From: a virus
Strand: one strand, 5' to 3'
Length of the DNA: 23,034 bases
Virus record (IMG/VR): IMGVR_UViG_3300001768_000023
Coordinates: 1-23,034 of that record
The position numbers were made by a program, and so were the translations under genes. Every line of letters begins with the position of its first letter. Positions within the stretch are counted from its first letter, which is position 1. The notes under the pieces are model-generated. The model was not told the DNA's origin and made no database searches. It worked only from the letters and a program-made list of their open reading frames with translations. This document shows, in pieces, positions 15,046-23,034 of this stretch.

Positions 15046-15298
15046 GGCGTTGCTCCTGGTGCTGGTAAACCATATCGACTTTGGCGGCGCACTCGGCCCA
15101 ATCGGCCTCGATTACGTCTGCGTCATTCAGCAGGTGGCCGTTGGCCTGTGGCTGCGTTGGTGACAGGGTGCAGGGCGTTACGGCGGGACAGCCAATCTCG
15201 ATAGTCTGCGGCGCCGGTGATGGCTGGACGGTGCCGCAGGCGGCGAGCAGCGACAGGCAGATCAACATCAGCCCACTGGCGTAGCTCTTGGTTTTCAC
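14999..15298 (-). CDS. lysC: Outer-membrane spanin lipoprotein (Rz1/LysC type), nested with the inner spanin
   Basis: The 99-residue product starts MKTKSYASGLMLICLSLLAACG, a lipoprotein signal with lipobox LAAC and the modified cysteine at residue 21. A Pro/Thr/Gln-rich mature part follows (VQPSPAPQ...TPCTLSPTQPQ). It starts at GTG with GAGG nine bases upstream, inside the inner spanin gene in another frame, the hallmark of Rz/Rz1 pairs. Inner and outer spanins bridge the periplasm and fuse the membranes at the end of lysis. Unlike most Rz1 genes it runs past the end of Rz and into R. Confidence 0.87.
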   Translation of the reverse strand: MKTKSYASGLMLICLSLLAACGTVQPSPAPQTIEIGCPAVTPCTLSPTQPQANGHLLNDADVIEADWAECAAKVDMVYQHQEQRRVQTQQPQAVPDQQR

Positions 15299-15584
15299 GT
15301 TTCAGCACCTCGATCTGTTGTTGACTGGTGCGCAGCGCTTGGCGGATGCCTGCTTGCTGTGCTTGTAGCTGCTGCTGTGCGCTGCGCTCGGAATCCAGCG
15401 CGGCGGTCAGTGAGTTGATGGTTTGCTGGCGGCTTGCACTCTGCTGCTCTGCTGTCTGGGCGCGCTCGGTTGCCAGCTTGGTGGCGCTCTGGGCGATCTG
15501 CACGCGCTGGTGCTGCATGTACAGCATGCCGGCCAGCGCCGCTAGCAGGGCGAGGCCGTAGAGGCTTTGGCGTAGGGTGGTCAC
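15123..15584 (-). CDS. lysB: Inner-membrane spanin (Rz/LysB type)
   Basis: The 153-residue product has one N-terminal membrane anchor at about residues 7-23 (SLYGLALLAALAGMLYM), followed by a long Gln-rich coiled coil from about 25 to 100, with no second membrane segment. This is the i-spanin architecture. The C-terminal part (WADVDLPVAARRLRHRPAI) resembles LysB proteins of P2-like phages. It starts at GTG overlapping the previous stop (GTGA). The outer spanin is encoded in another frame over its last third. Sequence identity between spanins is low, so the call rests on architecture, nesting and position. Confidence 0.87.
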   Translation of the reverse strand: MTTLRQSLYGLALLAALAGMLYMQHQRVQIAQSATKLATERAQTAEQQSASRQQTINSLTAALDSERSAQQQLQAQQAGIRQALRTSQQQIEVLKRENQELRQWADVDLPVAARRLRHRPAITGAADYRDWLSRRNALHPVTNAATGQRPPAE

Positions 15585-16057
15585 TGTAAAAACTCCCCCA
15601 GATAGAGATGCCGAAACTGCTCAGGGGTGTGAGTTTGCCGAGCCTCATCAATGGCGCTTTGAATATCAAAGGGCCAATAGAACCTTTCGAAATGCCCCTG
15701 CGCTGCTTTGACCAGCTGCAGCAGCAGATCATCCTCGTTTGCGGTGTCTCCGAGCCTTCGGAGAAAGCGCGGGGTGGTAGCGTAGTAGCCGCCTGCCTTT
15801 ACTTCGACGCCTTCAAGCCAGTCGAACTCATCATAGAACCAGACCACCTCATCAGGCTCGACGATAGCGGGGAGCGGCTGTTCTTGCCGCAGTACGAACA
15901 CGTCAGGCATTTGCTGTTGAAACTGATCTACAAGCCCATCAAAGGTAACGAACGCGACGGGGCGGCCCGTTGCTGCGCACTCATTTGCCAGCTTGATCAG
16001 CCGGGTTGATTTGCCGGTTTGGCGTGGGCTGATGTCCAGGTAGACGATGTGCGTCAT
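15581..16057 (-). CDS. Mini terminase-like P-loop ATPase in the lysis cassette
   Basis: This 158-residue protein has the ATPase motifs of large terminases in compact form. Residues 10-18 read SPRQTGKST, a Walker A of the terminase S-R/P-x-x-x-G-K-S/T kind. At about 70-79 VVWFYDEFDW is a Walker B with the catalytic Glu. YYATTPRFLR at about 90-100 matches the terminase coupling motif S/A-T-T/x-P. The end, TPEQFRHLYLGEFLQ, recalls the Y-L-G-E-F step at the start of terminase nuclease domains. No nuclease domain follows. The phage already encodes P and M, so this is not the main motor. It is coupled by 4-base overlaps to both neighbours. The ATPase fold is well supported by motifs; the terminase link and any role are inference. 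Confidence 0.75.
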   Translation of the reverse strand: MTHIVYLDISPRQTGKSTRLIKLANECAATGRPVAFVTFDGLVDQFQQQMPDVFVLRQEQPLPAIVEPDEVVWFYDEFDWLEGVEVKAGGYYATTPRFLRRLGDTANEDDLLLQLVKAAQGHFERFYWPFDIQSAIDEARQTHTPEQFRHLYLGEFLQ

Positions 16058-16269
16058 TTGCGGTACCAGCCGGCGGCGTTCATGTCCGCCTCGGACAGTT
16101 TGTCGATCGGCCCACCGATCACCAATACACGCTGTGGCGGCGAGACCAGTTCTCGCAGGGTGTCCATGAATTGGTTGATGTCGGACGGGCTTACGTCTTG
16201 GGGGAGCACCAGGACGTCGCCATCTTCGATCTTCAGTTTGCGGATTGCGTCCAACTGAGTTTCGGTCAT
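16054..16269 (-). CDS. Small protein of unknown function, partner of the P-loop protein
   Basis: I do not recognise the family. The 71-residue product has an N-terminal helix (TETQLDAIRKLKI), a beta strand (GDVLVLP), a helix (PSDINQFMDTLRELV), a second strand (QRVLVIGG) and a short C-terminal helix, so a small alpha/beta fold is likely. There is no signal peptide or membrane segment. Both ends overlap neighbours by four bases, placing it between endolysin and P-loop protein in one coupled unit. Small phage proteins with the pattern GDVLVL and VLVLxGG near the lysis genes are known to me only as hypothetical. Confidence 0.75.
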   Translation of the reverse strand: MTETQLDAIRKLKIEDGDVLVLPQDVSPSDINQFMDTLRELVSPPQRVLVIGGPIDKLSEADMNAAGWYRK

Positions 16270-17102
16270 GCGGGCACCTCTGCGGTTTGTTCCTGGTAAC
16301 GCTGATAGGCGCGGGCCAGCTTTACGTCGTACAGGTTGCGGGCGTAGGCGGGGCCGTTGTAGCGGCGGGCGAACTCGGTCCAGCGTTTGGCTTTGAGCGC
16401 TTTGTGCAGGGCTGGGTCTGCCTCAATGAAGCGGATGAAGGCTTCAAAGTGTTCGTTTTCGTCTTTGGCCATGCGCTGGGTGAAGTCGTCAATGCTGGCG
16501 TAGCCCAGGCGCTCGGCGTGGTAGCCCATGATCTGGAAGGCGCCCCAGCTGGCGGACTCTGGCGCGCACAGCGCATCGATCATGCAGGCCTGGGCCAGGC
16601 GCTGATGTTCTGCGGTACCGCCGGCGTAGCCGCCTACACGCGGGTTAACCAGGTTGGGGTAGAGGGTGGCCAGCTCATCGGCGTAGGCCTTGAGGGCGGC
16701 TGCGTCGTCGCTTTCGTGGCGCTGCAGGCTAAGCCGCTGGTGCATGACGTGCCGCTCAAACAAAATCTTGGGCTTGCCGTTGCTGAGAAAGCCCTCACCC
16801 CGGCTTTCTACCTCGGTTACGGCGTAGATGGCTGCAACATCGGCACCCAGCCGCGTGGCGGCCGCCAGTACGGCGTTGTTTTGCAGCAGCTGGCAGCAGT
16901 CACCCCCGCCCAGGGCGCGCAATGTGCTGGGGCCGGCGATGCCATCGGCGACCAGGCCGGCGCGCACTTGGTATGCCCGCACGGCCTGTTCGGTCAGGGG
17001 GCCGTAATGCCCATCAGGAAACAGCTTTGCACCGGCAGCATTGAGCTTGTGCTGCAGCTGTAGGACGGCGCTACCGGTGCTGCCGTGTTTGAGTACGGTC
17101 AT
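16266..17102 (-). CDS. Endolysin: N-acetylmuramidase with peptidoglycan-binding domain
   Basis: The 278-residue protein has an N-terminal peptidoglycan-binding domain at about residues 5-65 (GSTGSAVLQLQHKLNAAGA, DGHYGPLTEQAVRAYQ, DGIAGPSTLRAL). An N-acetylmuramidase domain (DUF3380 type) follows at about 85-270. Its signature is VTEVESRGEGFLSNGKPKILFERHVM, with E99 the likely catalytic acid, plus CAPESASWGAFQIMGYH and ARRYNGPAY. It should cut the glycan backbone of peptidoglycan. There is no signal peptide, so export depends on a holin. The ATG at 17102 overlaps the holin stop; a longer frame to 17420 is holin shadow. It replaces the lambda R-like K endolysin of P2. Confidence 0.94.
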   Translation of the reverse strand: MTVLKHGSTGSAVLQLQHKLNAAGAKLFPDGHYGPLTEQAVRAYQVRAGLVADGIAGPSTLRALGGGDCCQLLQNNAVLAAATRLGADVAAIYAVTEVESRGEGFLSNGKPKILFERHVMHQRLSLQRHESDDAAALKAYADELATLYPNLVNPRVGGYAGGTAEHQRLAQACMIDALCAPESASWGAFQIMGYHAERLGYASIDDFTQRMAKDENEHFEAFIRFIEADPALHKALKAKRWTEFARRYNGPAYARNLYDVKLARAYQRYQEQTAEVPA

Positions 17103-21276: not shown

Positions 21277-23034
21277 ATGAACGCTATCGCACAGCCCCAG
21301 ATCGACAACCGCCGGCACGCTCGCTTCCTGTATTGGACCGGGTGGCGCGTCTGCGACATTGCGGACTATCTGGGCGAGAACGCGAAGACCATCCACAGCT
21401 GGAAGGACAGGGACAGCTGGGACCGCGCCGATACTGTAGAGCGGGTGGGCGGTGCATTGGAAGCCCGTTTGGTCCAGCTGATTCTGAAAGACCCGAAGAC
21501 CGGCGGCGACTTCAAAGAGATAGACCTGCTGCACAGGCAGCTTGAGCGCCAGGCGCGGATCCAGCGTTATCAGGGCGGCGGTACCGAGACCGATCTAAAC
21601 CCGAACATCGCGGCACGCAACGCGGGGGCGAAGAAGGCGCCAACGCGCAACGAGCTGAGCGAAGAGCAGATCGAGCAGCTGGTCGATGCCTTCCGCGAAG
21701 GGTGCTTCGATTACCAGCTGGACTGGTACCGCGCGGGCAATATGCGCACCCGGATGATTCTTAAGTCTCGGCAGATCGGTGCTACGTACTATTTCGCACG
21801 GGAAGCGCTGATCGATGCCATCACCACCGGCCGCAACCAGATTTTCCTGTCAGCCAGCAAGGCCCAGGCGCACCAGTTCAAAACCTACATGCAGGCGTTT
21901 CTCAATGACGTGGTGGGCGTCAAGCTGACCGGTGACCCCATCGTGCTGTGGAACGGGGCAGAGCTGCACTTTCTGGGTACCAACTACCGGACGGCTCAGG
22001 GGCGCAGCGGCAACTTCTACTTTGATGAGTTCTTCTGGGTGCATGGCTTCCAGCAGATCAACAAGGTGGCTTCGGGTATGGCGCTGCACAAAAAGTGGCG
22101 CAAGACCTATTTCAGCACCCCATCCACCATGGCCCATGAGGCCTACCCGATCTGGACCGGTGAGCAGCGCAACAAGCGCCTGCCGGCTGACAAGCGGGTG
22201 CGCATCGATGTGAGCCACGACGCCCTGGCGCAGGGGCGGCTGTGTGAAGACCGGGTGTGGCGGCAGATCGTCACGATTCTGGATGCTGAGGCGCGCGGGT
22301 GTGACCTGTTCGACCTGGAAGAGCTGCGCGAGGAATATGACGCCGACGCTTTTGCCAACCTGCTGATGTGCCTGTTCATCGATGACGGCGACTCGATATT
22401 CCCGCTCAAGCTGTTGCAGCCCTGCATGGTCGATACCTGGGAAGTGTGGGACGACTATAAACCGTTTGCGCCACGGCCAGTGGGTGAGCGGCCCGTCTGG
22501 GTGGGGTACGACCCATCGGAGAGCGGCGACAGCGCGGGGTTGATTGTGGCTATGCCGCCGCTGGTTGCGGGTGGGCATTTCCGGGTGCTGGAGCGCCACC
22601 AGTTCAAAGGTATGGATTTTCAGGCCCAGGCCGAGTTCATCCGCAAGGTGACGCAGCGCTACCGGGTGACCTATATCGGGCTTGATACCACGGGCATGGG
22701 CACCGGCGTTGCCCAGCTGGTGCGCCAGTTCTTCCCGGGGCTGACCACGTTCAGCTACTCGCCCGAGGTCAAGGTGCGTCTGGTGATGAAAGCCATGGAC
22801 GTGATCCGCAACGCCCGTCTGCAGTTTGATGCCGGCTGGACCGATCTGGCCGCCAGTCTCATGGCGATCCGCAAGACGATGACCCCCAGCGGTCGGCAGA
22901 TGACTTTTGTCGCTGGCCGCACAGATGAGACCGGCCACGCGGATCTAGCGTGGGCGCTTTTCCACGCACTACACAACGAACCGCTGGAAGGGCGCACCGG
23001 CGCCAATACAGCGCGCATGGAGATTATTGGATGA
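21277..23034 (+). CDS. P: Terminase large subunit ATPase P (P2 gpP)
   Basis: The 585-residue protein is close to P2 gpP in size and powers DNA packaging. Residues 10-50 hold a helix-turn-helix-like DNA-binding region (RHARFLYWTGWRVCDIADYL, KTIHSWKDRDSW). The family's variant Walker A, KSRQIGAT, is at 163-170, and Walker B FDEFFW at 249-254. The coupling motif YFSTPS is near 275-280. The C-terminal part has VWVGYDPSESGDSAGL and YIGLDTTGMGTGV, the RNase H-like nuclease core with its acidic residues. The ATG at 21277 fits the family's N-terminal length but has a weak ribosome binding site; an in-frame GTG at 21232 is an alternative. The stop codon is the last codon of the window. Confidence 0.97.
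   Translation: MNAIAQPQIDNRRHARFLYWTGWRVCDIADYLGENAKTIHSWKDRDSWDRADTVERVGGALEARLVQLILKDPKTGGDFKEIDLLHRQLERQARIQRYQGGGTETDLNPNIAARNAGAKKAPTRNELSEEQIEQLVDAFREGCFDYQLDWYRAGNMRTRMILKSRQIGATYYFAREALIDAITTGRNQIFLSASKAQAHQFKTYMQAFLNDVVGVKLTGDPIVLWNGAELHFLGTNYRTAQGRSGNFYFDEFFWVHGFQQINKVASGMALHKKWRKTYFSTPSTMAHEAYPIWTGEQRNKRLPADKRVRIDVSHDALAQGRLCEDRVWRQIVTILDAEARGCDLFDLEELREEYDADAFANLLMCLFIDDGDSIFPLKLLQPCMVDTWEVWDDYKPFAPRPVGERPVWVGYDPSESGDSAGLIVAMPPLVAGGHFRVLERHQFKGMDFQAQAEFIRKVTQRYRVTYIGLDTTGMGTGVAQLVRQFFPGLTTFSYSPEVKVRLVMKAMDVIRNARLQFDAGWTDLAASLMAIRKTMTPSGRQMTFVAGRTDETGHADLAWALFHALHNEPLEGRTGANTARMEIIG

Follow-up and report, generated by a model that had tools for sequence, protein, structure and literature searches.

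A predicted terminase-type ATPase without a nuclease domain, encoded as a stand-alone gene in P2-like prophages and large virulent phages

The closest described systems to the small ATPase analysed here are the large subunits of phage terminases (TerL), i.e., those of P74-26, D6E, Sf6, HK97, and T4 (gp17), and the Pfam family Terminase_6N. In the terminase of D6E, R44 is the cis-acting loop arginine, residues 230-241 form the linker to the nuclease, and without the nuclease the kcat rises from 7.8 to 457.7 per min (PMC5727402). The protein described here resembles TerL in the fold predicted over its full chain and in a P-loop arginine, Walker A and B motifs, a TT coupling-type motif, lid helices, and a junction motif at its end. 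In contrast to TerL, it lacks the RNase H nuclease, comprises only 158 aa, and has almost nothing before the P-loop, as the chain begins only 8-9 residues ahead of it and lacks the preceding N-terminal region of terminases. It also differs in showing neither a significant Pfam match nor a sequence link beyond the P-loop, and its gene does not adjoin a small terminase gene. A terminase-type ATPase is a known kind of protein, but a stand-alone family of nuclease-less ones is new and would add a free-standing branch to the terminase-type ATPases, common to temperate P2-like and to large virulent phages.

The window, i.e., the whole stretch of 23,034 nucleotides that was analysed (IMG/VR virus record IMGVR_UViG_3300001768_000023), is a P2-like prophage, and Pseudomonas abyssi MT5 holds a gene identical to that of the window ATPase. 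A sequence-only reading had described a 158-residue protein with four motifs in terminase order and without a nuclease domain. Indeed, an open reading frame occupies exactly 15581-16057 on the minus strand and contains all four motifs (Table 1), no nuclease domain is matched, and the chain ends at the boundary between ATPase and linker. The ORF lies in a late operon and shares 4 bases with each of its neighbours, the 71-aa ORF upstream and the Rz ORF downstream; it is no chance reading frame. Upstream of the ATPase gene, the 71-aa ORF is followed by the genes for the N-acetylmuramidase and two holin-type proteins, tail gene X (assigned from its similarity to known X genes), and head gene L, whereas Rz, Rz1, R, and S are situated downstream. 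The full terminase that had been noted elsewhere in the phage is present as gpP, encoded as a separate gene in an operon of the opposite strand. It shows the same order of motifs (SRQIG, YFDEFFW, YFSTPS, and FANLLMCLF) as the small ATPase, but differs from it by extra N-terminal and nuclease domains and by a deviant P-loop, KSRQIGATYYF, which as in P2 lacks the usual GK lysine, while the P-loop of the small ATPase is canonical.

Table 1. Positions in the window of the ATPase gene, its motifs, and related genes
Feature	Position	Strand	Remarks
Stand-alone terminase-like P-loop ATPase	15581..16057	-	158 aa, ATG start
P-loop SPRQTGKS, residues 10-17	16007..16030	-	terminase-type loop arginine R12, lysine K16
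Walker B WFYDEFDW, residues 73-80	15818..15841	-	putative catalytic E77
Coupling-type (TT) motif YYATTPR, residues 91-97	15767..15787	-	
C-terminal junction motif FRHLYLGEF, residues 148-156	15590..15616	-	
71-aa neighbour ORF, phrog_10352	16054..16269	-	optional companion, same slot as ATPase
Rz-like inner-membrane spanin (LysB), downstream neighbour of ATPase	15123..15584	-	phrog_89 5.2e-31
N-acetylmuramidase endolysin, upstream of ATPase	16266..17099	-	PF11860 3e-60
Own full terminase large subunit gpP	21277..23034	+	Terminase_6N, 6C, Terminase_5

Loss of Walker residues in homologs had been named beforehand as an argument against ATPase function. Among 52 aligned family members no such loss was found: R12, K16, R19, D76, and F78 are each present in 52/52, E77 in 51/52, T95 in 50/52, and T94 in 48/52. 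The median dN/dS is 0.23 over 58 close pairs of family members, which indicates purifying selection, and relatives retain the catalytic residues. An xGE-type C-terminal ending occurs in 42 of the 52 members, and position 87, just ahead of the TT strand, is R or K in 46 of them and is lost in distant members. The junction motif is nearly the same as YRHIWLGEP of Sf6 and also resembles FRQEHTAAF of T4 and FKNLFMCEF of P2, and the TT motif has its counterparts in YFSTPS of gpP and ITTTPN of T4.

An AlphaFold2 model of the ATPase built from the 52-row alignment reaches a pLDDT of 93.3 and a pTM of 0.88. Comparison of a predicted structure with terminase ATPase domains had been proposed as a check, and large terminases are found at the top over the whole chain. 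With VIA-align, the best PDB matches are the ATPase domains of large terminases from six phage lineages (Z 8.1-11.5 over 142-147 residues, model residues 1-158), i.e., P74-26 (Z 11.5 over 144 residues, 3.0 A, model residues 2-158), D6E (10.5), Sf6 (10.3), HK97 (9.9), a T7-like terminase (8.6), and T4 (8.1), and helicases reach a Z of up to 8.8. Among the predicted viral structures of BFVD, terminases are the commonest named matches, mostly at a query TM of 0.5-0.68. Foldseek alone is ambiguous on the PDB, where E values of about 0.002-0.01 are shared by RecA, SRP GTPases, thymidine kinase, and terminase. The last residue of the model aligns to residue 232 of D6E, within the linker of that terminase, and the ATPase therefore stops where terminases change domain. 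From the model, the fold is very probably of the terminase type, consisting of an ASCE core and lid helices and ending at the point of the nuclease linker. For a distant member from a large phage (L077), a model of pLDDT 65, whose alignment comprised only window and viral-contig sequences, matches DEAD-type helicase domains at Z 9.8 and terminases at Z 9.2; since it fits helicases at least as well, the terminase link is loose across this branch as a whole.

Sequence comparisons give a fainter picture. The window protein has no match to a terminase or a nuclease domain in Pfam or PHROG, and a few relatives show weak matches to terminase profiles (best E 0.0012). In hmmsearch, gpP stays at noise level against the ATPase family; hhalign to gpP gives a probability below 1%, yet all four motifs are in register, and in profile-profile comparison with T4-type terminases only the P-loop aligns. 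As these comparisons yield noise or the P-loop only, homology to terminases rests on structure together with motif order. A terminase-type ATPase without a nuclease is thus supported by the predicted structure and the order of motifs, and not by sequence profiles alone. It had also been suggested that the protein was trimmed from a T4/HK97-type terminase. Descent from the T4/HK97 type is unproven, given that the sequence link is confined to the P-loop and that the protein belongs to an old and diverse family of its own, so that trimming of a terminase is only one possible origin.

No family match to the window ATPase exists in Pfam, PHROG, NCBIfam, or PADLOC, and searches of PDB sequences and of plasmids returned no match. 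One profile scan of IMG/VR yielded 74 viral-contig loci with relatives, and a second scan, in which distant members were included, extended the reach of the family to large virulent phages. In a direct search of 50,697 phage records, relatives were found only in Aeromonas phage LPM4 and Pseudomonas phage Cygsa01. The LPM4 member, the hypothetical protein UGC97277.1, occupies the same slot, in the order N-acetylmuramidase, ATPase, and LysB, but is only about 27% identical to the window ATPase, longer, and of another C-terminus. The ATPase is part of an old, diverse phage family which, as far as found, is undescribed; the open-access literature, which is not the whole literature, yielded no description of it. 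In two large phages, the family members (L075, 5818-6501; L077, 5821-6504) have N-terminal extensions of about 60 residues and are encoded directly after a RecA/UvsX-like gene.

The sequence-only reading had placed the gene in a lysis cassette, and in the window it indeed lies between the endolysin and spanin genes; the family as a whole is often found far from lysis genes. Across 76 loci the gene is near the endolysin gene in 48 and directly between L and R in at least 14, and the 14 loci left unplaced by this rule include some short contigs. Recurrence in lysis cassettes of P2-like prophages had been proposed as a check, and a place in such a cassette is seen in the 48 loci, but not in those between L and R. 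Phylogenetically, the two positions in P2-like phages form a coherent pattern (four changes over three labels). In one L-R case (L041), the order is L, ATPase, R, S, sheath, and tube, followed by lysozyme (PF00959) and Rz at 3.3 kb from the ATPase gene; S, sheath, and tube are what we take these genes to be from reading their sequences. Large phages carry the gene beside a RecA/UvsX-like gene and a DNA polymerase (L075 and L077), near a sliding clamp (Cygsa01), or near SbcD-like and Dda-like genes (L278 and L282), where the identities in unannotated contigs are again presumed from their sequences. Stable residence in lysis cassettes was not found over this whole set of loci, as others lie between L and R or in replication regions, and for the same reason lysis is not the common thread of the ATPase family. 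A position in a lysis cassette can thus mislead about the role of a gene.

The ATPase gene is optional, low in GC, and rare in sequenced isolates. Its GC content is 0.553, that of the 71-aa ORF 0.579, and that of the whole window 0.625. In Pseudomonas phage Dobby, the gpP of which is 77% identical, the endolysin gene is joined straight to LysB with no ATPase gene, and in D14A the slot holds a relative of the 71-aa ORF and nothing else. A gpP relative is present in 340 phage records, of which direct search found the ATPase only in those of LPM4 (two records), and in a survey of the host family, centred on the Pseudomonas abyssi genome, it occurs in 3 of 298 genomes. The 71-aa ORF accompanies 33 of the 48 lysis-slot loci, upstream of the ATPase in 16 and downstream in 17, and was undetected in 15. 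In other phages this ORF (phrog_10352) lies on the opposite side of the ATPase or is present without it.

We propose that the protein is a large-terminase-type ATPase with a single domain, in which the whole catalytic set is kept. For binding and hydrolysis of ATP, K16 and T/S17 would act on the phosphates, E77 would activate water, and R12 would move the lid as the loop arginine in cis. If the protein forms a ring, R/K87, immediately ahead of the TT strand, may supply its trans finger. Position 87 resembles the site of the D6E trans finger R158, in a mapping by the order of elements only. Judging from the conserved catalytic residues, the protein is likely an active ATPase, and the increased kcat of D6E upon removal of its nuclease implies that a nuclease-less form can be one. 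As it has no nuclease, it should not cut DNA, and it may act in trans on DNA or on a packaging complex. P2-like phages would make it with their late proteins, and large virulent phages along with those of replication. What the genomic contexts have in common is the handling of DNA and the DNA of the virion; we therefore favour an ATPase that acts in trans on DNA or on packaging, most likely a small DNA-handling ATPase at the step from replication to packaging. To this role we assign a probability of roughly 40%, ahead of packaging interference, an immune decoy, a nucleoside kinase, and a lysis factor. If packaging is touched, the protein would offer a natural motor domain of 158 aa for studies of the coupling of ATP to DNA without a nuclease, and might represent a level at which phage packaging is controlled or subject to competition. 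Rather unlikely is the wider proposal that phages of several lineages carry a stand-alone nuclease-less motor working in trans, be it on packaging complexes of the phage itself or of rivals, or on immune sensors of terminase; if true, it would constitute a previously undescribed kind of ATP-driven genome-packaging regulator.

The foremost alternative, although unlikely, is interference with packaging, in which a defective motor subunit joins or blocks terminase rings and thereby slows packaging of its own phage or poisons that of a superinfecting phage or satellite. The predicted terminase-type fold with ATP site and lid kept and the nuclease absent would suit such a subunit, as would an optional late gene of lower GC than the window that is absent from the nearest isolates. 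In addition, the family occurs in LPM4, which is the same as Prophage 3 of Aeromonas salmonicida, a prophage reported to make its host less sensitive to virulent phages (PMC8621227). However, LPM4 has many other genes, and this effect is therefore a lead and no more. A dead subunit would not need full conservation of its catalytic residues, and a gene of the late operon should be silent in the lysogen. Furthermore, the known defence hotspot of P2-like phages is situated near cos and not in the slot of the ATPase (PMC9122126), and virulent phages carry the ATPase among replication genes.

Host sensors of the Avs1-3 type recognise the large terminase (PMC12724215; PMC12931631), and a mimic of the terminase ATPase that retains the predicted fold and the ATP site might titrate them as an immune decoy. 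However, such a mimic might equally trigger the sensor, and PADLOC returned nothing relevant, i.e., only chance-level matches to Cas2c and Cas3d and no defence model that fits, so that we consider a decoy quite improbable.

It appears just as improbable that the gene encodes, instead of a motor ATPase, a thymidine-kinase-type enzyme that phosphorylates nucleotides or nucleosides. Type II thymidine kinases have a similar P-loop core and match the model at Z 8.0-10.2, the best over 129 residues; one thymidine kinase is also found in BFVD at a query TM of 0.51, and two distant members show weak matches to phrog_592 thymidine kinase (best E 0.0033). However, the terminase matches score higher and cover more of the chain, whereas those of the kinases stop short of the C-terminal lid, and at a threshold of E 0.05 none of the 52 members has a thymidine kinase match in Pfam. 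A fit to terminases is also seen in the P-loop arginine, which type II thymidine kinases are not known to have, and in the TT and junction motifs. A clearly better match to another P-loop family, by which the link to terminases was to be judged, was not found, with thymidine kinases at Z 10.2 and P74-26 at 11.5.

Least probable is the lysis or membrane role that had been suggested, such as an ATPase tuning the timing of holin, endolysin, or spanin from within the lysis cassette, which would agree with the 48 loci between endolysin and spanin and with the corresponding slot of P2, where lysA is annotated as affecting lysis timing, but not with a second P2-like clade that keeps the gene between L and R with its lysis genes elsewhere, the replication or recombination regions that hold it in large virulent phages, or a predicted domain that looks soluble.

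One candidate was kept out of the family, a 111-aa protein of Acinetobacter phage vB_Ab-P-7, a podophage (L297, 2995-3330), because of its deviant loop ASGRTTRM and the lack of a DE motif. In one distant member of the ATPase family it matches the N-terminal half, and it may be a degenerate relative. Its gene adjoins those for a DNA polymerase and an exonuclease.
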